A stretch of DNA of 47,535 bases from Halorubrum saccharovorum DSM 1137 (GTDB lineage Archaea; Halobacteriota; Halobacteria; Halobacteriales; Haloferacaceae): positions 1-47,535 of the forward strand of contig NZ_AOJE01000020.1 of assembly GCF_000337915.1 (NCBI RefSeq). Direction: 5' to 3'. The first letter of the stretch is position 1, and each line of letters opens with the position of its first letter. Under the pieces are notes generated by a model, which saw only the letters and a program-made list of their open reading frames with translations, made no database searches and had not been told where the DNA came from. Both the position numbers and the translations under genes were made by a program. Shown one piece after another: positions 13,100 through 32,484 of the stretch.

Positions 13100-15095
13100 T
13101 ACTCAACATTTGCTTAGCAGTACGATTTGGAACTTCCTTGGAGAACTGAGACATTCCAGAACTATTGGCTTCTATTCGTCCATGTAGTTGATTTATTATA
13201 TCAGTCGCGGTTCCAATTGGCACACCCTCAAGTTGAGGCAGAATATGTGCTGCAAATGCGTTACCGTAGTCCAACTCGCCTGACGCATTTAATTCGGAGA
13301 GGGTATGCTGGAGTGTATCCTTGATTAAGCCTGGTCCAATCGTGAGGTCTGCTTCGTATCCGTCATCGTTAAGCAGAACTTCCCACAAAATACTCAGATC
13401 CTTGTAAACTTGTTCAGCAGGTTCTGAGACGTCATCATCAATGCCAGCCTCAGGCCAAATCTCGGCTTCGGAATCGGGAATATCAACATCGTCCCAACAA
13501 TCAATATATCGCTCAACAATTTCAGATGAGATCTGGTCAGCATCAGGTACTGGAACAGAAATAAAGGCGAACCGTCGCATAAACGCATATCCCATTCTGT
13601 AGAGTGAGGATTTATCAACCGTGTTCATTGTCGCAAGTAGACGCCAGTCAGCAGGAATATAATAATTATACGAAGTGATCGGGGTTGACTCAAGTGAAGC
13701 AGGGTTACCATAGAGCATCACTTGGTATCCCCCAATATCAAACGAGAGTGATATATTTCTCTTAGTAAGTGCTGAAAAAAGAGAACCGAAAGCCTTCGCA
13801 ATATCAGCGCGATTTAACTCATCAAGAACTAACCATTCGTTTTTTGATTCGGGGACAGACGGATCAAGCAATCGTTGTAAAAATACACCTGGTTTGAATT
13901 CCAGTTGACCGTCTGATTTAGGTCGATATCCACCAATTGTATCGAAAGTTGACCAGTCAGCGGTTGCTGTGGCTATCGTATAATTATCAGACACGTAGTG
14001 TCTACAGATATATTCGGCAAGCGCTGTTTTTCCTGATCCGGGCGGTCCAGTTATGATAACATGTTTTCCTGATCGTATTGCATCGTCAATCTGGGCAGTT
14101 ACTGGTCGCTCATTTTCTTTCTGGGGGAAGTATAGTCCATCTGGTTGGGAAGGACTAGAGGTTGAATCGATCAGATTATCAACATTATCCCAAGTTCCGT
14201 TAGAATGTTGTGGGCCGACCGTATCTGTTTCAGGAGACTCAACAACGGTGGACTCCGATTTCGAACGTTCCAGATCTTTCCACGTTTCTTCGATCTGCTT
14301 TAGTCGATCATCAAATACATCCGTTAGTGTATTTCCAGCGCCTGAGTCTTTTTTGAGATCTTCATTACACTTGGATTGTACCGTTTCAAGTTTCACATTT
14401 TCGTCTTCTGCGACAGCTTCCTGAGCAAATTTACGCCGTTCACTGATTGAGTGTTTTTCACTATTATATTCTTCAAGAAATTGTACAACTGTTTCCTCGA
14501 TTTTATAGTGTTTGCTTGCTGAATTTTTCCACTTTTTGGGAAAATGATCATCTATTATTGATCTGATTTGTGTTCGTTTGTACCTCTCAATAAGGGCGTC
14601 ATCCAATGAGTCAGGCCTTGCGGCTAGCGCTACTTCTGTACGTGGCGTTTTTTTCAATCTACGTTTTTGTCTCCCAACACCGTCTCTAAGTGCTTTGTCC
14701 AGTGTAGATTCTTTAATCTGTATCGTCTGGGAGTACGAGAACTCTTGCTGCAGATATGCATCCCAAATAGCAAAAACGTCTTTTTGATCGTTATAACCTG
14801 CAAGCAAAACGAAAGACTCCACATTTGTATCCAACTTTCCGTCTCCTTCTGGTTCAATTGGTTGGACATTAAATTCGCCTTCTCGTGTGGAATGGGTAAG
14901 GCTGAGGAGGAAGGTTCGAATCTTCTCAGGCAACGGCTGTTTTAGCTCTACTTCGAATGGTACATCTGGACTACCAGTGTCTACAATATACGAATCTAGG
15001 GCCTGAACAAAAGCCGTATGACGCTCTTCAATTGGAACGCGCCCATCTGACATAATGAAACCATCGTAATGATACTGTAAAATACATTCGCTCAC
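13092..15095 (-). CDS. McrB-like AAA+ ATPase with extended N-terminus (667 aa)
   Basis: The AAA_5/McrB motor is in the C-terminal half: Walker A GPPGSGKTA (from residue 350), Walker B WLVLDELNRADIAKAFG, and McrB-type sensor TMNTVDKSSLYRMGYAFMRRF. The N-terminal 180 residues include FVLLAGYNDQKDVFAIWDAY, which resembles the DNA-binding or specificity modules found ahead of such motors in restriction proteins (MrcB_N/DUF3578-like; tentative). A helical linker rich in Glu, Lys and Ser follows (230-310). ATG 15095 is the first start; a second Met at residue 15 (MSDGRVPIEERHTAF) is equally plausible. The gene is coupled to its nuclease partner downstream. It is AT-rich. With its partner it makes a second McrBC-like unit, distinct from that at 4053-7045. 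Confidence 0.85.
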   Translation of the reverse strand: MSECILQYHYDGFIMSDGRVPIEERHTAFVQALDSYIVDTGSPDVPFEVELKQPLPEKIRTFLLSLTHSTREGEFNVQPIEPEGDGKLDTNVESFVLLAGYNDQKDVFAIWDAYLQQEFSYSQTIQIKESTLDKALRDGVGRQKRRLKKTPRTEVALAARPDSLDDALIERYKRTQIRSIIDDHFPKKWKNSASKHYKIEETVVQFLEEYNSEKHSISERRKFAQEAVAEDENVKLETVQSKCNEDLKKDSGAGNTLTDVFDDRLKQIEETWKDLERSKSESTVVESPETDTVGPQHSNGTWDNVDNLIDSTSSPSQPDGLYFPQKENERPVTAQIDDAIRSGKHVIITGPPGSGKTALAEYICRHYVSDNYTIATATADWSTFDTIGGYRPKSDGQLEFKPGVFLQRLLDPSVPESKNEWLVLDELNRADIAKAFGSLFSALTKRNISLSFDIGGYQVMLYGNPASLESTPITSYNYYIPADWRLLATMNTVDKSSLYRMGYAFMRRFAFISVPVPDADQISSEIVERYIDCWDDVDIPDSEAEIWPEAGIDDDVSEPAEQVYKDLSILWEVLLNDDGYEADLTIGPGLIKDTLQHTLSELNASGELDYGNAFAAHILPQLEGVPIGTATDIINQLHGRIEANSSGMSQFSKEVPNRTAKQMLSNV

Positions 15096-15259
15096 AGGTT
15101 CACGGTTTCTATGAATGATGTACTACTAGGTGTGTTATTATGAACTCACACGTATGTCCATGGTCGTTACATAGAGTAATTGTTGGAATCTTGACTCAGT
15201 AAAAGCATACATCATTCGATATAGTGACTAATCTTGGAATCAATCCTCAGAGATATGCC

Positions 15260-18200
15260 CTATTTTTGGAAACTGATCTCGATTTTTAGACTTGATGCTT
15301 CGTCAGGCATCCGCTCGAATAGATCCTGTACCTTAGTGTAATCTTGTTCAGATCGTAGCGTCAAGCTCACTTGCGAGCGTTCGATCTCGGCTGTTCCCTG
15401 GAGCGCGCTCGGGACGCCCTCACGGTCCGGCAACATGAACGTGACGTCGCCGTACTCTACGGTCCCGGTTTGGTGGTCCCGACGCCACTTTTTGCGCATG
15501 GCGGCGACGTCGTCGCCGTTGTACTCGAACCGCCACGTCTCCGAGCCGACGTCGGGAATCCGGAACGGGTACCCAGGAACCCAATCGGACGCCTTCTCGG
15601 AACCCGTCGGCCCGACAATGTACACCGGATCCTCTTCGCGGCCGAGGTTCTGCAGCAGGAACGTCTGTACCATGTCCTCTCTGACCGTGTTGTCGAAGCG
15701 ATCGGCGACCTTACTCACGGTGAACTGGTCCCCAGTATCTAGGTCGTCCAAATAGTCCAGAATCTCTCCGCCGATCCGGTTGGAGACCGTCGGAACGATT
15801 TTCACGGTCATCGGGTTCCGATCACCGAGCGAGTCAAGATACCGCCCGCCAGCTTCCAGTACGTACTCGTCGATGAGGAACTCGTTGACCGCCTCACGGG
15901 CTGCCGTCTCGGTCTCGTCCGGCGGGAGGAACACTGATTCGTCTGCGCGTATCTCGCCGATGATCGTTTCGACGTTCGCGTGTCCCTCCGCCTCGATGGC
16001 CTCCTCGATGCGCTCGGCAAGGTACGACCCGCCGACAGTCGTCGCGCTTCCGACATCGCGGAGTGTCGCGTCCGACTGCGGCTTGTCAAGGATCTCGTTA
16101 CCTCGGACAATCACGTACTGGTCCTCACGGTTCATACGCCCGATTGCTCGCATAACGACGTCGTGGCTGTCGCCGTCGATCCAAATTTCTCCGTCTTCGA
16201 CTAGTTCCAGTTCGAAGTCACCGATATCCAGTGCAGTCGTCCCGCTTCCGAACCGTTGGCGGAGTTCCTGTTCGACGTCGTCCACTCCCCACAGCTCTAC
16301 GTCATCCTGCCTGATTAGGACGGTGTCAAGCGAACTCCCAGAGAGGTCGTCACGGAAGCCGCCGGAGTCACGAGCCAGTACCGGTTTCCCATCGAGCGCC
16401 TTCACCGTCGCGTTCAGTACGTCGTTCGCGTTCCCCGGGACCGGGAGTTCCGGGTCACGGAGGAACTGCTCGTACACTTCCTCGATAGATATCTCGCCAC
16501 GGCGCTCCAGTAGGTCCGTTACGATGGGCCACACATGCGACTGTAGATCAAACGGATCGGCCGCCGCAGAATCCACGATGTTCGAGGCGTCAAGCTCCGG
16601 CCCATCGGACACGTAGACATCGAGATCCATCGGGGCCGCGAGATCGAATTCCTGGAGCAGGTTGTCGCCGTCCAGAACCTCCCCATAGAGCAACTGTAGC
16701 TCTTCGCGGAGCTCGCTCTCCTCTTGATCCTCCATCGACTGAATTGATTCGCGGATCTCGTCGTCAAGCGATTCGTCGGCGAGAACTTGACGAGCTCCCT
16801 CGATGTACCGTGCCTTGTCGATATACCGAGTCCCCGACTCGATCGCCTTGTCCCCGGAGGGCTGGACGAACACCAGTGTGTTCCGCCACTGGCGTCCGCG
16901 ACTGTCGTTCGTGATGACGCGTTCGACCTCCTCTTGGGTCCACTGGTCGTCCTTCACGACGACCTTGATGTCGCGGTCGTCCGGGACGTCCCGAATGTCA
17001 TCAGTCCGGAAACCGACCGGATAGGCGGTCGATCCGAAAATCTCGGTGATGAAGTCGGCAATCTCAGCCTTCGCAGACCGCTCCGACACATCGACGGCGG
17101 CGTTCCGAATGAGTGCGTTTGGATTCTGACGGTCCCGGATTGCGTACTTCCCGTTCAGCTTGTGGAGGTGCCACGCGACGCCGTGGAGCCGTTCGAGATT
17201 GAGCACGACGTCGGAGACGAGATCGCCCGTCTGGTACGCACCCATCACGATCTCAGAGACCTCAGCACCCTCCCCTTCGCTCGGCTTCAGCGAGTAGAGA
17301 AGAATGGTGTTGAGGATGCGACGGCCGTGGGGGACGTCGTCCTCATCCACTCGATTATTGATGTCGCCGGTCGCCGCGTTCAGTCGTTCGTAGTTGATCT
17401 TGGCGAGTTCGTCCTCGAATTTGATCCCGTCAATATCTCCATGCGTGATCAGGTCCGTCTCGTCCTGCATTTCGATGAGGACCTTCGAGAAGAGATAGAT
17501 CATCCCGCGCGTGTTCTGGTTCCCCTCGTCGGCGTAGTACCGCGTTTCAAGCGCGTCTAGGAGGACTGGATGGAACGGGTAGAGGTCGTGCATCTCCGAC
17601 AGGAGATCGTCGGGGATGGTGACGTGGTCGGACTGATCGTAGGCGTCGAAGTACCCGTTCACGATCTCACGGGCAGCCGATTCGTCCGTGTCCTCGATCA
17701 GGCGGTGGTGGAGGACCTGTCGCTTGTCCACCTGATTGTTCATGTTGACTTCGACCGCCTGTTCTCGATTCAGGATATCGTGGACCTCCGAGTCCTCGCG
17801 GAGAACCGAGACGATGGTGTAGAGCTCCAGATCAGACAGCGCCGTCGATTCGAGTAGGGACTGGAGGAAGGCCTTGTTCGCGCTTTTCCGATCTCCCTGA
17901 AGGGTATCGAACCAGTCCTCAAGCTCGTCTACGAGGAATGCGACGGTGTCGTCGCCCACGGCGTCCTGAATCGTCTGCATGTCCGGGTAGCCGCCGGACT
18001 CGTACGTTCCAGGATCGTAATCGAGCGCCTCGAAGAACGGCTCCCAGAGGTACTCGTACTGCTCGTTCTGCATGGCGACCGTGATCGGAACCGCCGCCTC
18101 TGGAAGCGACGATTCGAACCCTTCGATATCGTCGGCAGCCCACGAGCCCGCTGCGGCAGGATCGTCGAAGCAGTGATACAGTGCCACCATCTGGTGAGAC

Positions 18201-18466
18201 TTCCCACTGCCGTAGGGACCGTAGAGAATGTGCGTGCCACGTGGGTCATTACCCGTCAGGGAATCCCGGAGGATCGACAGGGCCTCTCGAAGTCCCTGGG
18301 TCATTAACGTGCGATCGAAGAAGAGCTCGGCGTCAGACTCGAACTCGTTCTCGTCATCCACGTTGTAGAGTTTTACTTGTCCGTCTATCTGTCCGTCCTC
18401 TCGAAGCTCACGGCTGAGCGTAACCGTGTCTTTGAGAGTCTTGGACAGGGAACCTACTTCGGACAT
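15260..18466 (-). CDS. DUF499-type P-loop ATPase (1068 aa)
   Basis: COG1483/DUF499 family. Walker A GPYGSGKSH is at residues 83-91 and Walker B AFLVDELEDWFD at 176-187. The rest is a long multidomain body typical of this family, which is a distant relative of the BrxC/PglY ATPases of BREX. DUF499 genes usually stand beside DUF1156 methylases in archaea, and here both a methylase arm on each side and a helicase are present. The start at 18466 (MSEVGSLSKTL) is preferred over the longer frame to 18532, whose extra residues do not look coding. GC-rich coding sequence contrasts with the AT-rich McrB-like pair downstream, which suggests that the pair was inserted between the ATPase and methylase genes. 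Probable role: motor or sensor of the methylation-based defence system. Confidence 0.88.
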   Translation of the reverse strand: MSEVGSLSKTLKDTVTLSRELREDGQIDGQVKLYNVDDENEFESDAELFFDRTLMTQGLREALSILRDSLTGNDPRGTHILYGPYGSGKSHQMVALYHCFDDPAAAGSWAADDIEGFESSLPEAAVPITVAMQNEQYEYLWEPFFEALDYDPGTYESGGYPDMQTIQDAVGDDTVAFLVDELEDWFDTLQGDRKSANKAFLQSLLESTALSDLELYTIVSVLREDSEVHDILNREQAVEVNMNNQVDKRQVLHHRLIEDTDESAAREIVNGYFDAYDQSDHVTIPDDLLSEMHDLYPFHPVLLDALETRYYADEGNQNTRGMIYLFSKVLIEMQDETDLITHGDIDGIKFEDELAKINYERLNAATGDINNRVDEDDVPHGRRILNTILLYSLKPSEGEGAEVSEIVMGAYQTGDLVSDVVLNLERLHGVAWHLHKLNGKYAIRDRQNPNALIRNAAVDVSERSAKAEIADFITEIFGSTAYPVGFRTDDIRDVPDDRDIKVVVKDDQWTQEEVERVITNDSRGRQWRNTLVFVQPSGDKAIESGTRYIDKARYIEGARQVLADESLDDEIRESIQSMEDQEESELREELQLLYGEVLDGDNLLQEFDLAAPMDLDVYVSDGPELDASNIVDSAAADPFDLQSHVWPIVTDLLERRGEISIEEVYEQFLRDPELPVPGNANDVLNATVKALDGKPVLARDSGGFRDDLSGSSLDTVLIRQDDVELWGVDDVEQELRQRFGSGTTALDIGDFELELVEDGEIWIDGDSHDVVMRAIGRMNREDQYVIVRGNEILDKPQSDATLRDVGSATTVGGSYLAERIEEAIEAEGHANVETIIGEIRADESVFLPPDETETAAREAVNEFLIDEYVLEAGGRYLDSLGDRNPMTVKIVPTVSNRIGGEILDYLDDLDTGDQFTVSKVADRFDNTVREDMVQTFLLQNLGREEDPVYIVGPTGSEKASDWVPGYPFRIPDVGSETWRFEYNGDDVAAMRKKWRRDHQTGTVEYGDVTFMLPDREGVPSALQGTAEIERSQVSLTLRSEQDYTKVQDLFERMPDEASSLKIEISFQK

Positions 18467-18665
18467 GCGTTGATGTATACATAGCTCACCACTAACCAGA
18501 TAAGCACTATGGTGAGGGGACACCGTTTCCATTAGATGAAAATTGCGTGGATTGGGATCTCAACTCTCTAATTCGAACCGAGACAGATCCAGGCTGTCGG
18601 GTGGCTCCTCAGTTCTGAGCTAGGCACGCATCCCCGGTGTCGCTCCAGTGTTTCGGTGGTAAGAA

Positions 18666-19290
18666 ATGCCCGAACGCGAGTTAGAATCCATCTCGCCGAG
18701 ACGTGCGAAGGAGATGTATCTTGAGGTATGGAAACACGAAGTGTCCGAGAGTACCCTCTCCGGGTATCACTATCGTCTCAAGCACTTCGGTTCGGTGGTG
18801 TGCTGAAGAAGCGAGCATAGACAATATGAACGACCTCACGGGGCGGAAGTTCCAAGATTTCAAAACGTGGTGTCGGGATGAGAACGGCCTGAAACCCATC
18901 ACACTCTGGGGACAACTAGCCACGCTCCGTATCTTCTTGAGGTGGTGTGAATCTATTGACGCCATTGAGAAAGGACTTCACGCCAAGATTGTGATGCCGG
19001 TGCTAAAGAAGGATGATGGGCAAAGTGAAGAGATACTGCGCTCAGAAAATGCCGAGAATGTGCTTGCGTACCTCCGGCGTTTTTAGTACGCTTCACGGTG
19101 GCACGTCATCTTGGAACTCTTGTGGCACACGGGAATTCGCCTCGGGGCGCTCTATTCACTTGATGTGGATGACTACGATAGCGAGAAAGAACGTCTGGGA
19201 TACGGAATCGCTCGGATAGAGGCACTCCACTAAAGAACGGAAATGAAGGTGAGCGAATAGTCGCACTAAGCGTTGACGTCTGTTGGTGTG
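18666..19290 (+). pseudogene. Tyrosine recombinase (XerC/D-like integrase), broken
   Basis: Frame pieces read as one haloarchaeal integrase: MPERELESISPRRAKEMYLE, then RWCAEEASIDNMNDLTGRKF, LRIFLRWCESIDAIEKGL, WHVILELLWHTGIRLGALYS and TPLKNGNEGERIVALSVDV. The segment HTGIRLGAL carries the first catalytic Arg. Lesions: one extra G at 18789/18790 (or equivalent) shifts the frame after LKHF; an in-frame TAG at 19084-19086 interrupts LRRF-YASRW; a further frameshift lies at about 19205-19222; and the sequence ends near 19290, before the rest of the catalytic domain (His-x-x-Arg and the nucleophile Tyr). It cannot make an active enzyme. It lies exactly between the two divergent arms of the methylase island. 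Confidence 0.85.
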
Positions 19291-19332
19291 CGGGATTTAT
19301 GAGACTCGGATGGATTGGATGGATATATCCCA

Positions 19333-21990
19333 ATGTCTCAAGAGACGGGTCACTCTGCTGAAGAAAGTGAACAGAAGGAATCTCCAATTCATCGAGCGTT
19401 CCCTATTGAACAAGTCAATAAAATTGCCGAAAAAGAGGCACGGGGTATTGCGAAACGTTACTACCGGCCTATCTACACGATGCATAAATGGTGGGCACGA
19501 AGGCTCGGATGTACATTTCGCGCGATCTCGCTTTATACATTGTTAGATGATGCAGATAATGTGAGTGTGTACGAACCGGGAGAGAACGGCACGTTAAACA
19601 ACTTTGATGGTGAGTATGATGGTTTATCAGAATTGATTGATGAGGTCAATATTGAAAATCCGGACTCACTTTGGGAACTTTATTCTAAAGATATACGGAT
19701 TGATGGGAAGAAGGTCTTAGACCCATTTATGGGGGGTGGAACAAGCGTTATTGAATCCTCCCGTTTCGGCGCAGAAGTTGTGGGCCACGATTTGAATCCT
19801 GTTGCTTGGTTTGTTTCGAAAAAAGAGGTTGATACCGGCCAAACCGACGTGGCGGATATCGAAGAAGCATATGAATCCCTGACGAGGGTCGAAGACGAAA
19901 TCAAGCAGTACTTCAAAACCTCTTGTCCCAACGGCGATCACGAAGCTGAAGTGATCTCTTACTTTTGGGTGAAGGAATTAGATTGTCCTTCCTGTGGTGA
20001 CTCTGTACCGTTGTTTAATGATTACCGAATTGCGAAAGGGCGTTACGATCACAAAGGGGAACAAATTGTACTCTGTCCTGAGTGTAACTCATTCGAGTAT
20101 GTAGATGATTGGCAATCGGAGTGTGACTGTAGCGAATGTGGAAATGAATTTAATCCGAGTAATGGCACTTCTGCGTCCGGTGGTTCAAAATATGCTTGCC
20201 AAAGTTGCGGTCAAATCTACCCGGTCACTGATGCTATTGGAGAACAGGATGGATTCCATCTCAATTTGTACGGGTTAGAATACTTCTGTGAAGAATGCGA
20301 CAAGCGGAGTGATCTAGACAAAGGCGATTACAAGGCATACAAACCCACCTCTAAGGCCGATCAGGAGCTATTTGAAGCAGCTAAGCAGGAGTGGTCGAAC
20401 AGCCCCGATTTGAGGGCATATATTCCGGATGAAGATCTTCGTCCGGGTCATATGATCAGCGACCGCAATCCGGTGTTTGATCACGGTTATACAAAGTGGG
20501 AAGATATGTTTAGCGAACGGCAACTCTTATCTCTGAGTAAACTTCTCAAAGCAATCGATCAGATAGAGGATCAAAACGTGAAGGAATTTATGCTTCTTTG
20601 CTTCAGTGATTCACTCCGCGGTAGTAATATGATGGTCACATATCAAACGGGAGCTAATGCAATTGATCATATCTTTAAATCGAATTCCTTTGACCCGCCA
20701 AAGCGTCCTGCTGAAAACAATCCGTGGGGTGCGAAAGAAGGCTCCCGAGATTTCAAAAGAGCATATGATCGCCTAAAAAAAGGTGTCGAATACGGATCTG
20801 CCCCTTTCGACCGATATCCTGATTCCGATGGAGAAATGGTGAAATCACCTCCATTTAATCAGCCTGTTGGCAAAAATGCGACAGTATTCCAAGGTGATTC
20901 AAAGAAATTAAACTATGAAGACGAATTTGATGCAGTTATTACAGATCCACCGTACTATGATAATATAATCTATTCTGAACTATCTGATTTCTTTTATGTA
21001 TGGCAAAAAATCGTACTCAGCAAGGAGTATGAAGAGTTCAAAGGTGAAGCCACGCCGAGAAGTGATAGTATCGTTGCAAACCCGTTTGAGGGAAAAAGAG
21101 AAGAAGAATTTGAAAAAGAGCTTGGAGAAGTATTCAGCAATATAATTTCTGCCCTCAAAGAAGATGGAACATTAGTATTCACGTATCATCATAGTGGATC
21201 GGAATCTTGGGGGCAAGTTCTAGAATCCCTGTGTGAGGTCGGTTTCGAAGTAACCGGCGCTTATCCGATAACAGCAGACTTGGATAAGCTAGAGAAGGGC
21301 GAATCGGTTTCATTCGATATAATAATAGTGGCCCGCCCGGTGAAAAGTCGGGAGCCAATAAGTTGGAACTCACTTCGTCGGAACATCTTCCGAACCGCAA
21401 AGCAGACCCACGATCAACTGAAAAACGAACGTGAATTATCGGCAGGCGATATTGGTGTTATTGAGATGGGTCGATGTTTCCAAGAGTATTCTAAACATCA
21501 CGGGAAGGTTCGACGTGGGGGTGAGCCAATGTCTGCCAAAGAAGTCGTAGACGAAATATATGGTGTGATCCAACAGGGCAGTGATATTGGGGAAATCGAT
21601 GTTTTCCTTGACCTGCTTGAGACACCTAATGCTAGCTACGATGACTTGAACAAGCTCACTCGGGGAACAAATGCTAGTCCTGAGCAAATGAGAGATATGA
21701 AGCTTTACCGTAGAGATAACGGGAACTTCGTCCTCGGGACGTGGGATGATGAAAAGCGGATGGCCTACATCCAAGAGCGAGTCAACGGCGACGACGAAGC
21801 CCTGAACGCTCTTGATAAGGCCCAATTCCTTCGGTATCGCTACGAACAGGGTAAATCCACACAGAATTACCTCTCAAAGTGGGACGTTGACGACGAACTC
21901 CGCGAACTCTGTGAAGGGCTAGCCGACGCGACCGGGGACGATACTTATCAGCGTATCCTTGGGGCAGACACGACACTCGGAGACTACTGA
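19333..21990 (+). CDS. DUF1156 adenine-type DNA methyltransferase with zinc ribbons (885 aa), copy 2
   Basis: Same architecture as the gene at 8646: FPIEQVNKIAEKE...YTMHKWWARRLG near the N-terminus, motif I DPFMGGGTS (130-138), zinc-ribbon CxxC pairs in the insert, and DPPYYDN (538-544). The whole length aligns with copy 1, with clear but incomplete identity, so it is an old paralogue or a second acquisition, not a recent duplication. Most of the gene is AT-rich, while the last 250 bases are GC-rich, like a recombination patch. ATG 19333 is chosen over 19315 because the encoded start MSQETGHSAEESE parallels MSEQSGPPQEKHE of copy 1. It heads the rightward arm, with the helicase 311 bases downstream. 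Confidence 0.9.
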   Translation: MSQETGHSAEESEQKESPIHRAFPIEQVNKIAEKEARGIAKRYYRPIYTMHKWWARRLGCTFRAISLYTLLDDADNVSVYEPGENGTLNNFDGEYDGLSELIDEVNIENPDSLWELYSKDIRIDGKKVLDPFMGGGTSVIESSRFGAEVVGHDLNPVAWFVSKKEVDTGQTDVADIEEAYESLTRVEDEIKQYFKTSCPNGDHEAEVISYFWVKELDCPSCGDSVPLFNDYRIAKGRYDHKGEQIVLCPECNSFEYVDDWQSECDCSECGNEFNPSNGTSASGGSKYACQSCGQIYPVTDAIGEQDGFHLNLYGLEYFCEECDKRSDLDKGDYKAYKPTSKADQELFEAAKQEWSNSPDLRAYIPDEDLRPGHMISDRNPVFDHGYTKWEDMFSERQLLSLSKLLKAIDQIEDQNVKEFMLLCFSDSLRGSNMMVTYQTGANAIDHIFKSNSFDPPKRPAENNPWGAKEGSRDFKRAYDRLKKGVEYGSAPFDRYPDSDGEMVKSPPFNQPVGKNATVFQGDSKKLNYEDEFDAVITDPPYYDNIIYSELSDFFYVWQKIVLSKEYEEFKGEATPRSDSIVANPFEGKREEEFEKELGEVFSNIISALKEDGTLVFTYHHSGSESWGQVLESLCEVGFEVTGAYPITADLDKLEKGESVSFDIIIVARPVKSREPISWNSLRRNIFRTAKQTHDQLKNERELSAGDIGVIEMGRCFQEYSKHHGKVRRGGEPMSAKEVVDEIYGVIQQGSDIGEIDVFLDLLETPNASYDDLNKLTRGTNASPEQMRDMKLYRRDNGNFVLGTWDDEKRMAYIQERVNGDDEALNALDKAQFLRYRYEQGKSTQNYLSKWDVDDELRELCEGLADATGDDTYQRILGADTTLGDY

Positions 21991-22301
21991 CACCACGGCA
22001 ATTCCCCAGTGCCCCGTCAGTTCCCCTGACGTGTTCCCCAGCTGGCCACACACTACTCTTTGTGGGTGTTCCCTATGTCTCAAGACGCTATCAGTAGTCA
22101 CAGAGCTCCACAGAAGTGTGTTTACAGACGTTGCTGAACATCAACAGCCGTTGTGGCGTATCGGGTTCTCCCTGATTCTAAAAGCGTGTTTCAATTCCAT
22201 AGGTTGGCAGTCTGAGTGTTCTGTAATAAATATTGAAAACTGTCGTGGACAGAACACATCGCTACACAACATATTTGACGGTCAACTAACTCTCCAACTA
22301 C
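21991..22301 (+). other. Intergenic region with short hairpin
   Basis: No gene. A short inverted repeat (CGTCAG at 22015-22020, CTGACG at 22026-22031) follows the methylase and could weaken read-through, although no T-run follows. A TATA-like AT-rich stretch at about 22268-22275 is 27-34 bases ahead of the helicase ATG, so the helicase may have its own promoter. Confidence 0.4.
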
Positions 22302-24053
22302 ATGAGCGATTTTGACCTCGTGGATATCGAGGTCACCCATGAGCCAGCGGACGATGTTCTACACTTAGACCCTAGCGAGGCAAGTGAAGGTCACCTTCAT
22401 ACTATTCAGGCGGTTCGTCTACAAGCGGGCCAACCGGACTCCGAACTCCGGTCGCTGAAACAGCTGGACGAGAATTCGGTCAAAATGCTCGAACATCAGG
22501 TCGATGCGGCGTATCGGGCCTTGTTCGAGATGGATGGAAAGGCGTTGCTCGCCGATGAGGTTGGACTGGGGAAGACGATCGAAGTTGGGATGATCCTCAA
22601 AGAGATGCACTTTCGGGATACGAATGACTCCGTCCTCATCTTGACGCCCGCTCAACTGGCCAAGCAGTGGCAGGCAGAACTCCGAGAGAAGTTCGGACTG
22701 GAGTTTGTCTGTAACTACGACGACGAGTTCAACGGGTTCGACAGTCACGACTACATCATCGCCAGCATCGATACGGCCAAAAGCGACAGATACCGACAGA
22801 CGGTTCTCGCCCGCAACTGGGACGTACTGGTTCTGGACGAAGCCCACTACGTGAAGAATGAGGAGACAGACCGGTACGAGCTGATCGACCAGCTCTCGTA
22901 CAACTACGCATTCTTCCTCACGGCGACACCGATACAGAACGAACTTACAGACCTCTACAACGTCGTCTCGCTACTCCGCCCGGGCCTGTTCGGAACACGT
23001 GACGTATTCCACCAGTACTTCGTCAATAGCGACCAGGAGACCCTCGTCAACCGTAACGAGCTTCAAGACCGGTTGAACAAGGTGATGATCCGGAATCGGC
23101 GTGAAGACACAGACGTCGATTTCACCGAACGACGGATCGATACGCGGAAGTTCGACCCGTCCCCGGCGGAACGCGAACTCTACCAGGCCGTATCCGACTA
23201 CGTCAAAGGAGCCTACAGCCAAGACCAAGGGCAGAAACTGGTGTTGATGCTCCTCCAGAAGGAGGTTGTCAGTAGTCCTGAGGCGCTTGAGACGACGATA
23301 CGAAGACGCCTTGACGACCAATCCGAACTCACACAGACAGAAGAGCTGGAGTCGATCTTGGACCTGATTGATGACGTAGACACCGTTACCAAACAAGAAC
23401 GGTTACTCGATATCGTCGAAGAAGCGCGTGATAACGTTGAGAAAGGTCGTGTGATCGTCTTCACGCAATTCCGCGCTACACAACGCCGCGTAGCCGAACG
23501 ACTGGCCTCAGAAGGGTACACAGTCCATTCGTTCCATGGCGGTCACTCAAGCCAGGAGAAAGAGGAAATCATCACGAATTTCGAAGAGCAGGGCGGAATC
23601 CTTGTTTCGACAGATGCGATGTCCGAGGGACGCAACGCACAGTTCTGCAATATTATGGTGAATTGGGACCTGCCATGGAACCCTATGCGCGTTGAGCAGC
23701 GTATAGGTCGGATTCATCGGATCGGTCAGAAACGGCAGGTCTACGTGTTCAATATGGCGTTGAAGGATACTATCGAAGAATACGTTCTTGAACGTCTGTA
23801 TCACAAGATCGACCTCTTCCAACAGAGCGTCGGCGAGCTGAGCGAGATCCTCACGAGGTTGGAGGAGTCCGGGAAGAGCTTCGAGGACGAGATCTTCGAA
23901 CGGTTGGTCAACGCCGATTCCGAGATCGATCTGGAGAACGATTTCGACGCGATGGCGGTCGATCTTCAGGAGCAACGTGACTTGGCTGAGAAGTTAGAGG
24001 AGTTCAACAGCGGTGTCTTCGAAGGATTCGATTTGGGGGCCAGCGATGACTGA
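22302..24053 (+). CDS. SNF2/RapA-type superfamily 2 helicase (583 aa)
   Basis: Two RecA-like lobes. Lobe 1: LLADEVGLGKTIEVGM (82-97, Walker A), LILTPAQLAKQW, VLVLDEAHYVK (DEAH box, 179-182), FLTATPIQNEL (motif III). Lobe 2: VIVFTQFRATQRRVAERL, ISTDAMSEGRN-type segment, and RVEQRIGRIHRIGQ (motif VI). The protein stops soon after lobe 2, at 583 residues, whereas single-chain archaeal relatives with this core are commonly near 950. The adjacent gene starts by an 8-base overlap (ATGACTGA) and may supply the missing C-terminal half. It probably acts as a DNA translocase with the flanking methylase and ATPase. Confidence 0.92.
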   Translation: MSDFDLVDIEVTHEPADDVLHLDPSEASEGHLHTIQAVRLQAGQPDSELRSLKQLDENSVKMLEHQVDAAYRALFEMDGKALLADEVGLGKTIEVGMILKEMHFRDTNDSVLILTPAQLAKQWQAELREKFGLEFVCNYDDEFNGFDSHDYIIASIDTAKSDRYRQTVLARNWDVLVLDEAHYVKNEETDRYELIDQLSYNYAFFLTATPIQNELTDLYNVVSLLRPGLFGTRDVFHQYFVNSDQETLVNRNELQDRLNKVMIRNRREDTDVDFTERRIDTRKFDPSPAERELYQAVSDYVKGAYSQDQGQKLVLMLLQKEVVSSPEALETTIRRRLDDQSELTQTEELESILDLIDDVDTVTKQERLLDIVEEARDNVEKGRVIVFTQFRATQRRVAERLASEGYTVHSFHGGHSSQEKEEIITNFEEQGGILVSTDAMSEGRNAQFCNIMVNWDLPWNPMRVEQRIGRIHRIGQKRQVYVFNMALKDTIEEYVLERLYHKIDLFQQSVGELSEILTRLEESGKSFEDEIFERLVNADSEIDLENDFDAMAVDLQEQRDLAEKLEEFNSGVFEGFDLGASDD

Positions 24054-25291: not shown

Positions 25292-26623
25292 ATGTCTGTT
25301 GACAATATACTTTTGCTCCGGGTAGGTATTGATAGTGGAACTGGAAACGGTCACGGACCCCTATTCGAGGATAATTCGTTCGAATATATCCCGATTCCAG
25401 AAGGACCTGAAGGCCCCTCAACGACCGAAGGGAGAACGTACGATGAAATCGCCGGTCGGTACGGGGGATCGCTTGCTGATTACGTGCCACACCTCTCTAA
25501 CGGTACTCCCCACTTTGACCCTGAGTTTGAAACCTACACCTATGGCGATCCAAGTCCTAACAAGCGTAGTCAGTTGTCTAGGCTATCTTCGGACGATCTT
25601 CTGATTTTTTACAGCAGTCTGTCGCCCCAGGATGCCGACATCAAACCGCGTCTGTGCGCAATTGGGGTTTTCACTGTAGACGCCACGTACGACTTAGAAG
25701 CGATGTCGCCCGATGAACGAGCGGAGGCTCTCGATCAGGTTCAGAATAATGCACACGCTAAACGGACTGGTTTGACCCCGGATTCGCCAGTCCGGGATAA
25801 CTTCCCTGTAATTGTGAAAGGACGTCCTGAGGAGAGCGAACTTTTTGATATACCTCGTCCACTCGGGAATAGTGACCGTTCAGTACTTTCTTGGGTTGCG
25901 GATATAATCGGATTTAGCGGAGACTTGACCCGTGCAGGTGTCGCTCGTGTATTGGACGAATCAAATGCGGATGAAATCAAAGACTGGTTACAGCACGGGA
26001 GCGATCTGTTGATTCGAGATGATCGAGCGCTCCGGTCGTATGTGATGACCTCAGATACTGGATTTGCTCCAAATGTAACAGGAGATGTCTGTACACTCGC
26101 TACGTGTAAACCTAGGGTGCGGGAGCATGCACAGGTTGGCGACTGGATTCTAGGGACTCCCTCACGGTCTGCTGGTGAAGAACACCTAATCCATCTCAGT
26201 CGCGTTGAGGAAACTCTCTCCTATGACGAATACTACCGAGACGATAGATTCCAGGATAAAAAGCCAGAGCATGATCCGAATGGGGATAACATCTATTACC
26301 TGAAAGATGGAGTTCTAACTCAGGATGAAGGAACGAACCATCATAAGAGCCGAAACCACCGGGAGCGTGATTTGAAGACAGATCGCGTGCTGATTAGCGA
26401 GACCTTCTGGTATTTCGGAAATTCTGGTGTAGCTGTCCCAGAAAGACTACGACATGATGTGATCCATAAGTACAACCAAGATAGTCGTCGGTTATATTCG
26501 AAGTCGGAATCAACATCGCTCCATGATCTCGTAGAGTGGTGTAGTCTCAGATTTGATCTGGGAGACCATGGAACCAGAGATCTAACTCTTACTGGTCCGT
26601 CTACCTCCGGATCTGGATGCTGA
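25292..26623 (+). CDS. Nucleotide-modification-associated protein, Nmad3-Nmad2 type fusion (443 aa)
   Basis: N-terminal half (1-210): LLLRVGIDSGTGNGHGPLF, a YIPIPE stretch, and HFDPEFET followed by DDLLIFYSSLSP, the layout I recall for Nmad3. C-terminal part (about 248-440): SDTGFAPN, TLATCKPRVREHAQVGDWIL, DEYYRDDRFQDKKPE, DNIYYLKDG and DRVLISETFWYFG, the layout I recall for Nmad2. These domains were defined by their association with DNA or nucleotide modification genes; their biochemical roles remain poorly known. The gene follows the zinc-ribbon gene by 94 bases with a GGGGAGG Shine-Dalgarno-like run (25273-25279) and a TATA-like TTAATATA about 25 bases upstream. It may read or process the mark laid by the nearby methylases, but that is inferred. 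Confidence 0.7.
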   Translation: MSVDNILLLRVGIDSGTGNGHGPLFEDNSFEYIPIPEGPEGPSTTEGRTYDEIAGRYGGSLADYVPHLSNGTPHFDPEFETYTYGDPSPNKRSQLSRLSSDDLLIFYSSLSPQDADIKPRLCAIGVFTVDATYDLEAMSPDERAEALDQVQNNAHAKRTGLTPDSPVRDNFPVIVKGRPEESELFDIPRPLGNSDRSVLSWVADIIGFSGDLTRAGVARVLDESNADEIKDWLQHGSDLLIRDDRALRSYVMTSDTGFAPNVTGDVCTLATCKPRVREHAQVGDWILGTPSRSAGEEHLIHLSRVEETLSYDEYYRDDRFQDKKPEHDPNGDNIYYLKDGVLTQDEGTNHHKSRNHRERDLKTDRVLISETFWYFGNSGVAVPERLRHDVIHKYNQDSRRLYSKSESTSLHDLVEWCSLRFDLGDHGTRDLTLTGPSTSGSGC

Positions 26624-27012
26624 TGTGTCTCTGGCTCTGTTGAAATCCTCTCAAGGTTACACATCTCAACCCGCTGCGGTCAGCACAGGGGACTCACGTA
26701 TCGGTCAGTATAGTCGAACGCTCTAACACGCTGGCAGCCAACTTACTCTGGATCTCTCAGGACCGGTTTGATGAATATTCTGAGGGAACGATCTATCTCA
26801 ACGATCACCGATTTCTGACTTACTGTAAGTTAAAATCAAACCTGACGATTGAATCTTTCCACCGTCCGAAGTAGACTCCTATAATAGGGGATTTACGAGT
26901 ATTTCCCTGAAGGGCCTTGCTCACCCAGACAGCGCGGTACAGGGTATTCAACAGTTTCTAGACACACTGTGAAGAAGTTTTATTAGTTATAACTCTGATA
27001 AGATAAATCAAT
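26624..27012 (+). other. Intergenic region with possible gene remnant and promoter
   Basis: A plus-strand frame at about 26643-26874 is open, without any ATG, and reads protein-like (SNTLAANLLWISQDRFDEYS, then EGTIYLNDHRFLTYC). It may be the tail of a lost gene. Near the right end a TATA-like TTTATTA (26978-26984) lies 29-35 bases before ATG 27013 and is the likely promoter of the following pair. Confidence 0.4.
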
Positions 27013-28308
27013 ATGCCAATCACTACTCCCGAAGAGTTGGATTATGATGACGAGTTGTATGAAACGCTGAATCCTCGGAAGAAAGACCTTCTCTACCAAC
27101 TCTTCAATCTGTATAATGACCGGATAGACCATCGAGAGATAGTCAAAGATACGTACACAACCGATGAACTGCGGAAGATACTAGCGAGTAGACTATCCGA
27201 AGAGACGCGTACATTTCTGGAACAGCACCGGAAGCTTAGCGAAGAGGGGGTCCGAACTGGTCCTGCGATAGATTATCTTGCAGAACATTACGATATCGAT
27301 GAAAGCGATTTAGAGATCAATACACGATACGAGCTTCTACTTCTTCTCCATCAAGAGGGGCTAATTGACCGATTGAATGAATTAATGATTCGGTCTCGCA
27401 TTCGGTCATATTCTGCGAGACGGACCTACTTTCTAGAGGAAGAGCTTGACCTGAGCGGACTGGAGGACGGACTTGGTCAATTTCATCACGAATGGAACCG
27501 AGAACAGGAGGATCCGAGTGCCGTTTTAGTTGACGTGGAGTTTGAGACAGAGCAGTTGGTTGTTTTGAAAATCTATCAGGAAGTTGGGCCGAAATATCCG
27601 AAGACGTTCTCATTCCGGATTGACGATACCGAGGATGAAAGAGACGGTGTACCAACTGAGCCAGAGCTTTCACAGATCAATTACCACCAACTGAAGACTA
27701 TCCGCTTCCAATTAGAAATTCTGTCTGATGAAACTGAGATCGTCTTTACAGAATCATTCAACCGCTGGCGTAGGACCCTTAGCCACTTCTTTGATACGGC
27801 ATTCGGTGTCGATGATTTCTATGACAAGCTTCAGGAACGGACTTCGGACATCGCTGAAAAGATCGAGGATGAAATCGTTGAAAGCGTGGAGGAACGAGAC
27901 GAGTCTATTGAGGCGGCTCGTGAGACAATAGAGGCTCACCGTTCTGAAGCGATTGATAGAATTGCCCGTCTTGATATCCCAGATGAGCGGAAAGAGGACT
28001 TGAAAACGCGAATCCAGACGATTGAGATCAGTGGATCAGAAATCTTTGACGACCAATCAATTGAAACACAGGAATTCCGGTTGATTGCGACCCTAGATGG
28101 CCTTTTTGACTCTGTTGATGGAATAGAAGAGGGATTCCGAGAAATGATCAAAAACGCCGACACCGAGAGCCAGTCGTTCGTTCTCACAATTAGTGATCGA
28201 CCAGTCCAGTTCAGTAATGGTCTGTGGCAGAGTGTCGGAGCAGGAACGCTACCGGATCGAGACCAGCGTGCGCTTGAAATCTTCTTTGATGATGAGAACG
28301 ATGAATGA
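27013..28308 (+). CDS. Hypothetical protein, first gene of a FokI-like nuclease pair (431 aa)
   Basis: No family recognised. Visible features are a charged N-terminal helical region (from YDDELYETLNPRKKDLL), a central region with beta-strand patches (VLVDVEFETEQLVVLKIYQE), a helical, Glu-rich coiled coil near 275-330 (EKIEDEIVESVEERDESIEA), and a C-terminal domain ending in acidic FFDDENDE. The stop overlaps the start of the nuclease gene by 8 bases (ATGAATGA), indicating one functional unit. It might be a DNA-binding, sensor or neutralising partner of the nuclease; the sequence does not decide. It has its own TATA box and so can be expressed independently of the methylase arm. Confidence 0.65.
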   Translation: MPITTPEELDYDDELYETLNPRKKDLLYQLFNLYNDRIDHREIVKDTYTTDELRKILASRLSEETRTFLEQHRKLSEEGVRTGPAIDYLAEHYDIDESDLEINTRYELLLLLHQEGLIDRLNELMIRSRIRSYSARRTYFLEEELDLSGLEDGLGQFHHEWNREQEDPSAVLVDVEFETEQLVVLKIYQEVGPKYPKTFSFRIDDTEDERDGVPTEPELSQINYHQLKTIRFQLEILSDETEIVFTESFNRWRRTLSHFFDTAFGVDDFYDKLQERTSDIAEKIEDEIVESVEERDESIEAARETIEAHRSEAIDRIARLDIPDERKEDLKTRIQTIEISGSEIFDDQSIETQEFRLIATLDGLFDSVDGIEEGFREMIKNADTESQSFVLTISDRPVQFSNGLWQSVGAGTLPDRDQRALEIFFDDENDE

Positions 28309-29752
28309 AGAAGTAATTGGCGCGTTAGATGAACTCCTTACTCTTGAGGAAGGTAGCACTTCCTTTGAAGAGAACGAGATTCCAGAAATATTGGTAGGTA
28401 CTGAGTATATTGAATCTGAGATCAGGCATCCGACTCGCTGTCCTATCATACCTTCCTGCCGAGAGCCATGTGAATGTGACCAAGACGGTCCATCGATTGT
28501 TGTCCAGTGTGATGCCGGGCATGAAGGGAGCATATCCACGAGCGAATACACCTACTACGACATCAATTTTGAAGCGGTTATTCGCTCGATAGCGGACCAC
28601 ATAGAGCGAAGCTTGGTGAATGTCGATACGAGCACTCAACCCCGCTATGTGTCGGGGATTACCGGCGATAATTTAGATATCTATCTAATAATCTCACCGT
28701 CTGATTACCAGAAGGCTATCAATGAGATCTGCATAGCGACTCTTCGGGAGGAGACACCTGCTCTGTTGATTACTCCTGAGGAAAGTGTCACAGAATTGCT
28801 TGAGATTCAATCTCTGTTCGCGGGGGGGAATCTGATTTACACGATTCCATTCACTATGCTCACTGCGATTGGTGAGATCCAAAGTTCACTTGAAACGATT
28901 GATGAGATCAAATCCTTGGAACGGGAATTTATCGAAGAACAGGCTGATACTGAGCATCCGGTTGTTCTTCGTGTAAACTCGAATCCGAGATACATACTCA
29001 CAGAGCTCAACCAGATGCGGTTGCTTCGAATGGCAGGTGAAATCCCCCAATCCTCAGGAAAACGATTGGAGAAAATCGGAGAATCGGTCTTCTCGCACCT
29101 CTTCGTAACGTATCCTGACCGAGGGGGCGAAGATGACCGGGGGACCAATCTCCCTGATTCAATCTTCTATATTGCGGACAACGGATTGCCGGATGATTGT
29201 GAGTCCGTTCTCGGGATCGTCGATACCAAGTCAGGAGAAGATGCAAGCTTCCGGACTGAGTCTGTGGAAGGGAAACATGATGAATATCTACGGCGGGGCC
29301 GTCGTCAGTCAGTTGCTGCCGATGTACTTGCTCATACCTTTGTGATTCTGGAATTCGACGGACAGCAAGAACTTGATTTCTTTGATCAGATGGCAACACG
29401 GTATCACGATGGCGAATTTATGGTCATATTCACAGCAGAAGCGTTGGCAATGATTATGGCAGCTTATCTCGCCCATACTGTCACAAACGAACTGACACTA
29501 GTTGAAGGAAACTTCCAAGCGACCATCTACCCATTTTTCAATAAGGAGCACTTTCGAGAGGCGGGACTCGCTGGCATTACTCGGGATGTTGGGAGAAACC
29601 AAGAAGACTACAATGATGCATATATCCAGCGCGATAACCTGCTAATCGTTACAGAAAGCGTTGTGGAAGAACGATTAAAAGACTGTATTGATTCCCCGAA
29701 TGAAGTCGAACAGATTTTATCATCCTATTATCGAGAAATGACAACAATATGA
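28301..29752 (+). CDS. Cysteine-cluster protein with FokI-like PD-(D/E)XK nuclease domain (483 aa)
   Basis: N-terminal Cys47, Cys53, Cys57, Cys59, Cys70 and His74 (CPIIPSCREPCEC, then VQCDAGH) look like a zinc-binding knuckle. The middle (120-250) is unassigned. Residues 270-345 have the FokI cleavage-domain pattern: an upstream helix (KIGESVFSHLF), PDSIFYI with Asp286, then IVDTKSG with Asp308-Thr-Lys310, followed by a region of basic helices (DEYLRRGRRQ). R.FokI itself has PDGAIYTV...VIVDTKAY. ATG 28301 overlaps the previous stop by 8 bases. A G7 run lies at 28822-28828. Nuclease activity is predicted from this pattern; the recognition partner would be the 431-residue protein or the zinc part. 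The family assignment is by motif only. Confidence 0.65.
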   Translation: MNEEVIGALDELLTLEEGSTSFEENEIPEILVGTEYIESEIRHPTRCPIIPSCREPCECDQDGPSIVVQCDAGHEGSISTSEYTYYDINFEAVIRSIADHIERSLVNVDTSTQPRYVSGITGDNLDIYLIISPSDYQKAINEICIATLREETPALLITPEESVTELLEIQSLFAGGNLIYTIPFTMLTAIGEIQSSLETIDEIKSLEREFIEEQADTEHPVVLRVNSNPRYILTELNQMRLLRMAGEIPQSSGKRLEKIGESVFSHLFVTYPDRGGEDDRGTNLPDSIFYIADNGLPDDCESVLGIVDTKSGEDASFRTESVEGKHDEYLRRGRRQSVAADVLAHTFVILEFDGQQELDFFDQMATRYHDGEFMVIFTAEALAMIMAAYLAHTVTNELTLVEGNFQATIYPFFNKEHFREAGLAGITRDVGRNQEDYNDAYIQRDNLLIVTESVVEERLKDCIDSPNEVEQILSSYYREMTTI

Positions 29753-30049
29753 TATTCGTCTTGATTTCAGGCTATCTATTCCAGCATAGCGTGTCATAAA
29801 AGTCGAATACATCACCCCAGTCGTCTTAGACGATAGGTACGCACTCTTCAGCAACCGGCTGTTTCAGTCGATAATGTATCTGAAGAATAGAATTTCAATA
29901 GAGTCGAATATCTCTATTAAACGAGTACGAGAAGGTGCCGTAGTTTCGGTGGTAAACCTGCGGATGAGAGTGTTGGTGAGTAGTTCAACCTAGTCGTAAC
30001 GCCACCTGGGTCAAGTAAAAATTGGAACGCAAGCCAGTAGCCCCCAATA
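29753..30049 (+). other. Intergenic region between convergent genes
   Basis: AT-rich, no gene recognised. A short palindrome (TCGTCTTAGACGA, about 29820-29832) lies just after the nuclease gene and may act in transcription ending. Confidence 0.4.
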
Positions 30050-30553
30050 CTAGGTGGATCTAGCCGCCTTTGTTCGAGCGCGTTCATACAGGCGGCGTTC
30101 CTCAATAGCTGTGGCCCAGTCGCCAAGTTCTGTGTAGACGTTGTCAATCTGTGCTTCGTCGAATTCGAGGGTGTTGACTTCAATAGGCGAATCAGCGTCG
30201 TACTCGTCTCGGTATTCCTCAATACGGTCGGTCAGCTCTGACACTCGGGACTGCAACTCGCAAACAGTGCTCTCTTGGGCCAGTTCGTACACCCGCCGCC
30301 ACTCGAAGTAGTCATTATTACGCTGGTACCGAACTGGCCGACCCCCGTGGCGGATAACAATACCAAGTTCAGTATAGAAGGACAGGTGTGTCCGTGCTGA
30401 GTCCACCGAGCAATCCGCCCACTCGGCGATTTTGGAGACTGCTGTTGGCTTTCGGGCATGCAACACCGCTCCGTATACGCGGTGTTTTGTATCCCCACCC
30501 TCCATCGGCCTATCAAATGAGGGTGGACCGTCGCGGTGAACATCGTCAGTCAT
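30050..30553 (-). CDS. Haloarchaeal winged-helix transcription regulator, DUF7342-like (167 aa)
   Basis: N-terminal winged helix-turn-helix at residues 22-75: KHRVYGAVLHARKPTAV, then WADCSVDSARTHLSFYTELG as recognition region, and a GGRPVRYQRN wing. A long helical part follows (VCELQSRVSELTDRIEEYRD) that probably dimerises. This arrangement is common among small haloarchaeal regulators of the ArsR-like group. It is convergent with the FokI-like pair, and no target can be read from the sequence. It is the last accessory gene before the ribosomal operon. Confidence 0.75.
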   Translation of the reverse strand: MTDDVHRDGPPSFDRPMEGGDTKHRVYGAVLHARKPTAVSKIAEWADCSVDSARTHLSFYTELGIVIRHGGRPVRYQRNNDYFEWRRVYELAQESTVCELQSRVSELTDRIEEYRDEYDADSPIEVNTLEFDEAQIDNVYTELGDWATAIEERRLYERARTKAARST

Positions 30554-31005: not shown

Positions 31006-31008
31006 TTA
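30965..31008 (-). terminator. Long inverted repeat overlapping the secY stop codon
   Basis: Left arm TAAGAAC (30965-30971) and CTAGAACG (30974-30981) pair with CGTTCTAG (30990-30997) and GTTCTTA (31002-31008), leaving an 8-base loop and a small asymmetric internal bulge. The right arm contains the complement of the secY stop codon (31006-31008). In the transcript direction (leftward) a T-rich stretch CTGTTTTATTG follows the stem. It is a likely end signal for the ribosomal operon, or a recombination-prone site at the island border. The repeat is seen directly; the role is inferred. Confidence 0.6.
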
Positions 31009-32484
31009 CTCATTCCCAAACATCTGGCGCATCATCGGGTGCATCTCCATCAGCTGCTCTTCCGCGATCTCCTCGTACAGCTTGTACGTGATAGAGACCG
31101 CGAGCAACAGTCCGGTTCCGGAGACCTGCCCGATGGTGCCGAGCAGGTTCGCCATAACGGCGAGCAGCCCGACGAGGGCGCCGCCGATGACCGTTACCTG
31201 CGGGATGTACCGTTCCATGACCTTCTCGACGACCTGCGGGTTCCGTCGGAACCCGGGGATCTGCATCCCGGAGTTCTGGATCTGTTTCGCCGTCGCCTCC
31301 GGGCCCATCCCGGTGGTCTCGACCCAGAAGATGGCGAAGATCGCGCCGCCGACGACCATGAAGGTGAGGTCGATAAGCAGTCGAACCGCGATCATCCACG
31401 GCTCAACCGACGCCGGTATCTCACCCAGGAACCACATCCAGTCGGTTCTGCGCTGGATCGGGTTCAGATAGTAGAACAGCCCGGAGATGGGCTGACCTTG
31501 GCCGCTGTAGACGCCGAGCCAGCTCGGCATCCCCGCCCACTGAGAGGAGAGGAGCTGCCCGAGGAACTGGATGTTCGCCTGCAGCGCGCGGACGAGGATC
31601 ATCGGCAGGACGGACGCGTAGATGAGCTTCACCGGGAAGCGCCCGCGAGCACCCTTCACTCGCGCGTGCGACAGCGGGATCTCGACGCGGACCGACTCCG
31701 CGTACACGACGATCCCGAAGATGAACAGCGTGGTGAAAAGCGCCAAGATGTTCCCCGGGTCGAACAGCAGGTTCTGGAGACCCTCCGCCGTGAACGGCGA
31801 GAGCGACACCGGCACGTCGCCGACGATGATGCCGTACCAGCTCGCGAAGAAGCCGGAGGCGCCGAGCGCGGAGAAACTGAAGAACCCGCCGACGATCTGC
31901 TGGCTCACCGCCGCGATGATGAACAGCCCGACGCCGGAGCCGACGCCCCACTTGCTCACGATCTCGTCCATGAACAGAAGGAGGACGCCGCCGACGAAGA
32001 TCTGTACGAAGATCAGCGCCTCGACGCCGAACGTTCCGATACCGAGCGACTGTCCGACGGCCGGATCCGCAGGCAGGAACTCGCCGGTGAACACCATGGG
32101 CGCGGCCGTCAGCGCCGTGACGATAATCACCAGCAGCTTCTGGAGGCCTTGGTACAGGACCTGATCGCGCGGGTCGTCGGTGTCGAGCCCCAGCAGGTTC
32201 GCACCGCCCAACAGCTGGAGGACGATGGACGCCGTGACGATCGGTCCGATACCGACCTGCAACAGCGAGCCGGACGAGCCGGCAAGCACCGACCGGAACT
32301 GCCCGAAGAAGTCAGACCCCTGGCCGACGGCCAACCCGAACGGGTTGATGTTGGTCAGGAAGAAGTAGACGACCAAGATGCCGGCCGTCCACATGAGCTT
32401 CCGCTTGAACGGAACGTGACCCGCGGGCCGCTCCACGACGGGCATCCGCGTGAGCACCGGTTCGGCGACCTCCTTCCAACTCAT
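31006..32484 (-). CDS. secY: Preprotein translocase subunit SecY (492 aa)
   Basis: Pore-forming subunit of the Sec translocon in the cytoplasmic membrane, partner of SecE and Sec61-beta. Ten hydrophobic segments are visible. The N-terminal LMWTAGILVVYFFLTNINPF and the plug-region segment GSDFFGQFRSVLAGS are typical. The C-terminal part has the family's GFRRNPQVVEKVMERYIP and ITYKLYEEIAEEQ. The length is normal for haloarchaea. It is the last gene of the operon, three bases after rpl15, as is usual for archaeal spc-type clusters. Confidence 0.97.
   Translation of the reverse strand: MSWKEVAEPVLTRMPVVERPAGHVPFKRKLMWTAGILVVYFFLTNINPFGLAVGQGSDFFGQFRSVLAGSSGSLLQVGIGPIVTASIVLQLLGGANLLGLDTDDPRDQVLYQGLQKLLVIIVTALTAAPMVFTGEFLPADPAVGQSLGIGTFGVEALIFVQIFVGGVLLLFMDEIVSKWGVGSGVGLFIIAAVSQQIVGGFFSFSALGASGFFASWYGIIVGDVPVSLSPFTAEGLQNLLFDPGNILALFTTLFIFGIVVYAESVRVEIPLSHARVKGARGRFPVKLIYASVLPMILVRALQANIQFLGQLLSSQWAGMPSWLGVYSGQGQPISGLFYYLNPIQRRTDWMWFLGEIPASVEPWMIAVRLLIDLTFMVVGGAIFAIFWVETTGMGPEATAKQIQNSGMQIPGFRRNPQVVEKVMERYIPQVTVIGGALVGLLAVMANLLGTIGQVSGTGLLLAVSITYKLYEEIAEEQLMEMHPMMRQMFGNE

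Follow-up and report, generated by a model that had tools for sequence, protein, structure and literature searches.

A pair of overlapping genes at the end of a defence island in the haloarchaeon Halorubrum saccharovorum DSM 1137 was shown, by sequence comparison of homologous loci, to be an obligate, co-evolving unit, and we hold with moderate confidence that its two proteins, A and B, would form a horizontally moving DNA-cutting immune module of haloarchaea. The pairing is constant, and B appears to be a nuclease that combines a zinc knuckle with an active site like that of FokI, which makes the two genes good candidates for a new immune module, as the original prediction had proposed. The window, i.e., the whole stretch of DNA analysed (47,535 nucleotides), is part of a 3.42-Mb haloarchaeal genome. 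Gene A (27013–28308, forward strand, ATG start) encodes 431 amino acids; gene B (28301–29752, forward strand) starts at the ATG at 28301 and encodes 483 amino acids, its longest open reading frame beginning further upstream, at a GTG (28193). The stop of A and the start of B overlap by the predicted 8 nt (28301–28308, forward strand), through which the translation of both genes is likely coupled. The TATA box claimed for the pair was also found: a TATA-like TTTTATTA (26978–26985, forward strand) can be read from the sequence ~30 nt ahead of the ATG of gene A and is likely the promoter of a leaderless two-gene transcript; in many homologous loci, though not in all, a T/A-rich box stands about as far ahead of the start.

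Protein B was predicted to consist of a zinc ribbon, a middle alpha/beta domain and a C-terminal FokI-like PD-(D/E)XK nuclease domain. The putative active site (29069–29287, forward strand) comprises Glu257 in a helix, the PD motif with Asp286, D308-x-K310 and K325-x3-Y329; Asp286 lies in PDSIFYI and Asp308/Lys310 in IVDTKSG, at the positions originally named. E257, D286, D308, K310, K325 and Y329 were invariant in 23 aligned B sequences, with identity down to ~20%, and the block containing the nuclease (246–350) was the best conserved part of the protein. In a 20-row alignment, C47, C53, C70, E257, D286, D308, K310, S311, K325 and Y329 were conserved without exception, and the 23-row alignment gave the same list. 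The superfamily motif E...PD...(D/E)xK is thus carried by B and by all its aligned homologues. The N-terminal Cys/His cluster (28439–28522, forward strand; C47-x5-C53-x16-C70-x3-H74) was present as claimed, with cysteines 47, 53, 57, 59 and 70 plus His74 in the window protein, but not all of it proved to be conserved: C47, C53 and C70 were invariant and position 74 was a histidine in 20 of 23 sequences and a cysteine in one, in contrast to the unconserved C57 and C59. Since only C47, C53, C70 and H74 are conserved, the knuckle reads as a CCCH ribbon. B thus has a zinc ribbon of its own and ~220 residues of N-terminal domains that could serve as a recognition part.

An AlphaFold2 model of B built from six sequences (mean pLDDT 72, pTM 0.61; pLDDT mostly 55–85 across the PD-(D/E)XK core) placed E257 in a helix (252–267), followed by a strand after PD286 (288–291), a strand carrying D308 and K310 (303–310), a helix carrying K325 and Y329 (325–339) and a strand (342–349), with a further helix (355–365) and strand (372–378) behind them. 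This order fits the alpha-beta-beta-beta-alpha-beta topology of the PD-(D/E)XK core around the motif, and residues 270–345, on whose fold the original prediction depended, follow it in the predicted secondary structure. Alignment and model support the assignment of B as a PD-(D/E)XK nuclease with a FokI-like layout.

Profile comparison aligned B co-linearly with the FokI cleavage domain (query sequence matching 1fok over its full length) over ~120 columns (121), and matched each of E257, D286, D308, K310 and Y329 to its invariant FokI counterpart (E, D450, D467, K469 and Y, respectively). With hhalign, the first alignment scored 24.5, which none of 100 column shuffles reached (probability 5%), and larger alignments scored 23.7, which was reached by 1 of 200 (probability 4%), so that over both runs 1 of 300 shuffles reached the score, with a marginal hhalign probability of 2–5%; as controls, profiles of A, of the N-terminal half of B and of reversed B scored 12–14 against FokI. 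Since the hhalign probability is so low, we consider the FokI-likeness of B, as judged from profiles and model, likely, though short of proven. Neither B (E ≤ 10) nor any of 20 B homologues (E ≤ 1) was recognised by PF09254, the Pfam model of the FokI domain, and B is therefore not filed under this family; the profile search suggested at the outset succeeded in pairing the catalytic residues, at a marginal score, and failed for the Pfam model.

Comparison of the B model with all PDB chains (350,542) by Foldseek returned Nt.BspD6I, a FokI-type enzyme, in all of the top eight positions, with E values between 4e-3 and 2e-2 and a highest probability of 0.97, the ninth match being unrelated. The best E value (4e-3) misses the usual strict cut-off, and the likeness is one of local fold because the global TM is low (0.27). 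The R.FokI-like layout ascribed to B is supported by these fold matches and, marginally, by the profile pairing. B resembles R.FokI (PF09254) in the order and invariance of its active site, with the Glu of the first helix, the GG before PD (D450), D467-x-K469 and the Tyr of the next helix. It differs from it in its zinc ribbon, in N-terminal domains unrelated by the tests run, in the KxxxY of the second helix, in a longer C-terminus, in its obligate second gene and in lacking a methyltransferase next to it: those annotated FokI genes on plasmids that were examined adjoin Dam-family methylases. A search with FokI_cleav_dom in 197 genomes of the phylum gave only three sub-threshold matches, which were other PD-(D/E)XK proteins from outside the order of the pair, failed the B profile and were discarded. 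In archaea outside the order, L111, L112 and L113 carry a PD-(D/E)XK protein with a GG-x3-D...(E/D)AK core, below the FokI cleavage-domain cut-off and with no match to the B profile.

Protein A has a helical N-terminal part (13–137), an alpha/beta middle (138–264), a long helix (281–318, coiled coil) and a mixed C-terminal part; its predicted model, with the same helical N-terminus, central alpha/beta part and long helix, was weak (pTM 0.39). Its near-invariant residues (N162, E190, F199, R202, G341, D347 and A382) include no PD-(D/E)XK motif, with the caveat that the model is weak, and to our knowledge form no known nuclease or nucleotide-binding motif. No DNA-binding domain was identified in A, for which the model is a poor guide. 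Foldseek matches of A to CENP-N (E 3e-3, 17 Å rmsd) and to a METTL16 domain were set aside because the model is poor. We infer that A may be a recognition, sensing or inhibition partner.

The impression that A resembles nothing familiar held throughout, since Pfam, PADLOC and PDB profile searches gave no significant match and the fold matches were not useful; the single match to A in PADLOC-DB 2.0.0 (E 0.027) lay in the coiled-coil part. Pfam gave nothing significant for any A or B homologue, NCBIfam and PADLOC nothing significant for any B homologue, and the PDB profile search nothing significant for either protein. PADLOC-DB 2.0.0 had no match to B, and one of 20 B homologues weakly matched PDC-S64 (E 0.0095). 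A and B are outside the families in the libraries searched (Pfam, NCBIfam, PADLOC, PDB). Moreover, no relatives of B were found among viral contigs and phage records, no convincing match was found in a viral fold library, and no description of the pair was found in the literature searched.

B was present in 21 of 391 haloarchaeal genomes of the class (18 genera, 7 families; two chance matches removed), and profile and plasmid searches gave additional loci beyond this set. A search of genome contigs with an 8-row alignment gave five loci, and single-protein and 20-row pattern searches were unsuccessful. Matches in G174 and G277 (methyltransferase-like frames) and in G007 (coiled coil) were judged to be due to chance and kept out of the counts. 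When 393 genomes from across the phylum were searched with a profile, the pair was found only in the order Halobacteriales (name taken from plasmid records). Far from homologues of B never co-occurring with the first gene, A lay directly upstream in 25/25 loci with a full-length B and a sequenced upstream side, one of which (L060) has an A broken by a probable insertion. The G341 pair is divided by contig ends. Among 23 pairs measured, one had a 2-nt gap between the genes; in the other 22 the genes overlapped, by 4 to 20 nt and most often by 4 or 8. Pairwise distances of A and B were correlated (r = 0.948, against at most 0.325 in 5000 permutations), which fits partners that are inherited together, with A more diverged than B in ~80% of comparisons (before correction of one B start). 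Wherever dS was estimable, dN/dS of close pairs was 0.055–0.128, which shows purifying selection at the sequence level, and no gene was constant beside A and B as a third member across 27 loci.

B copies with 75–92% identity occurred in different families, the closest such pairs (L044/L045, L051/L052 and L054/L069) reaching 90–92%, and no other sampled genome of the genus to which the window belongs had the pair. Since the closest copies span families while genus mates lack the pair, we conclude that it moves horizontally. Some copies are damaged. In L060 (10573–13366, the G370 copy), A is split around an ORF (11551–12372) that recurs in other loci and is probably a transposase, and the downstream B is intact. 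L075 (11956–12804) and L122 carry B remnants with no recognised A. One of these two remnants, on the Haloterrigena plasmid pHTS138, adjoins Pycsar-type cyclase/effector genes.

In the window, the pair is the final unit of a defence island, as originally described. Upstream of it lie McrB/McrC-like genes (4053–7045), an HNH protein, a first DUF1156 methylase (8646–11315, reverse strand), an MTaX1-AAA ATPase, a DUF499 ATPase (15260–18532, reverse strand), a second DUF1156 methylase (19315–21990), an SNF2 helicase (22302–24053), a coiled-coil protein and an Nmad3-Nmad2 fusion (25292–26623). Within this island, the stretch 8646–24053 is a Hma/BREX-like cluster, with two opposed DUF1156 methylases around the DUF499 ATPase plus MTaX1-AAA and the SNF2 helicase, and the fusion joins the Nmad3 and Nmad2 nucleotide-modification-associated domains in a single protein. 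Downstream of the pair are an HTH gene (30050–30553) and, past the end of the island, secY (31006–32484, reverse strand), the latter named from the sequence itself and not by library search. Among 24 sampled genomes of the genus, the window's own included, the best match of a stretch across the junction of island and secY covered secY in 23, and three genomes had a separate match to the HTH gene elsewhere. Because junction matches outside the own genome begin only at or downstream of ~30886, the island and the pair look like insertions there. Directly downstream of gene B, a dispersed repeat of ~66 bp (TCTTCAGCGACCGGCTGTTTCAG...TCTGAAGAATAGGATTTCAACAGAGCC; 29838–29907) was observed, of which the same genome has at least nine more copies and other members of the genus have many; copies are ~78–90% identical, some lie at contig ends, and an Rfam search of the repeat gave no match.

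The surroundings of other copies were explored by setting 106 ORFs from the neighbourhood of the pair against 108 from control regions of the same contigs (E ≤ 1e-10). Neighbours matched 235 PADLOC families and controls 40 (~six times), a ratio to be read as a direction and not as a p-value because families, not genes, were counted and redundant models inflate it. The neighbour families included type I and type III restriction, BrxA/BrxB, AbiEi, HmaC and HamB, and 10 of the 25 control families listed were Cas12f/Cas12u-type models, which also match related IS transposon nucleases. The gene-neighbourhood survey called for in the original prediction found A always upstream and defence families enriched nearby, and the immune role was supported indirectly, by this enrichment and by patchy transfer. 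In type IIS restriction-modification a methyltransferase is encoded with the endonuclease; no recurrent methyltransferase gene was found near the pair in 27 loci, the methylase neighbours varying by locus.

These contexts bear on what else the pair might be. In a two-subunit type IIS enzyme of the R.BspD6I kind, B would recognise the target and nick one strand, A would be needed for the second strand, and the methyltransferase would be encoded elsewhere. R.BspD6I is likewise a two-protein endonuclease: Nt.BspD6I, which the fold of B matched best, forms the large subunit of this heterodimer, and the small subunit is inactive unless the large one is itself catalytically active (PMC6261011). The catalytic E418 and D456 of the enzyme (PMC6261011) correspond in kind to E257 and D286 of B. 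The obligate partnership of A and B fits this scheme too. In contrast, the small subunit of R.BspD6I is a nuclease cutting the bottom strand, whereas A has no recognisable nuclease motif, a PD-(D/E)XK motif being absent among its near-invariant residues, and its weak model does not resemble a nuclease; a sequence-level match between R.BspD6I and the pair was also absent, and the methylases found nearby differ from locus to locus. RE_AlwI, which we take to be the family of Nt.BspD6I, was found in 0 of 145 haloarchaeal genomes, although control genomes gave no match either. We regard such an enzyme as unlikely. An infection-triggered suicidal nuclease or toxin-antitoxin-like pair, in which A restrains B or senses infection and active B degrades all cell DNA, would agree with the absence of a cognate modification, with obligate pairing and translational coupling, and with the occurrence of B lacking an intact A only as remnants (L075, L122) or beside an insertion-broken A (L060). 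This last locus also speaks against it, since a full-length B that persists by a broken A would be disfavoured under a strict toxin role; moreover, A is large and structured, unlike typical antitoxins, and no NTPase or signal-binding domain was identified. We consider this reading rather unlikely.

That A and B serve the neighbouring Hma/BREX-like system (DUF1156-DUF499-SNF2 helicase) as accessory subunits, and do not form an independent module, is suggested by the window itself, where the pair lies on the same strand 390 bp downstream of this cluster, and by L044, L049/L071 and L072, where a similar DUF499-DUF1156 set adjoins the pair. Such neighbours occur in only 4 of 27 loci, however; elsewhere the pair adjoins type I, type III or BREX components, plasmid genes or integrases, and it has its own TATA-like box, so that we find an accessory role very improbable. 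Many copies lie on plasmids, annotated there as two hypothetical proteins, near integrases, transposases, TFB and replication genes, which would fit a plasmid or mobile-element function (DNA processing, exclusion of competing plasmids) in place of antiviral defence. The pair is also found on multi-megabase contigs (L043, L046, L047, L055 and L058), in the window it is near secY and beside defence genes, and conserved transfer or replication partners are absent around it; such a function appears distinctly unlikely.

Under the preferred reading, that of an immune module, A and B would form one complex, A, or A together with the N-terminal half of B, would recognise the target or the state of infection, and B would pair with a second B in the manner of FokI to make a metal-dependent double-strand cut. 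Because the unit contains no methyltransferase, self DNA would probably be spared with no cognate methylation, the module recognising something absent there (a modification, a DNA structure or a viral trigger). By analogy, the pair probably works in a type IV-like manner or as an infection-triggered nuclease. As in type IV restriction (McrBC, Mrr and others), the nuclease has no cognate methyltransferase; A and B differ from these systems in having no GTPase/AAA motor as in McrB and no recognised modified-base reader domain. Septu, Gabija and Lamassu are similarly compact two-gene nuclease modules in defence islands. They contain an ATPase or helicase partner, whereas neither A nor B matches a P-loop family. 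More specifically, a FokI-class nuclease with a zinc reader and no protecting methylase might depend for its arming on a second, separate protein that recognises or senses, diverges rapidly and has an undescribed fold; we offer this tentatively, as possible rather than probable.

A conserved mobile two-gene module, probably a nuclease, spans at least seven haloarchaeal families, labelled 'hypothetical' wherever its annotation was seen. Should A prove to be a distinct subunit that lends the FokI-like nuclease its specificity or its trigger, the pair would be a natural counterpart of the split design engineered in zinc-finger and TALE nucleases, and the arming of B by A, if true, would represent a natural split between recognition and cleavage in archaeal immunity.
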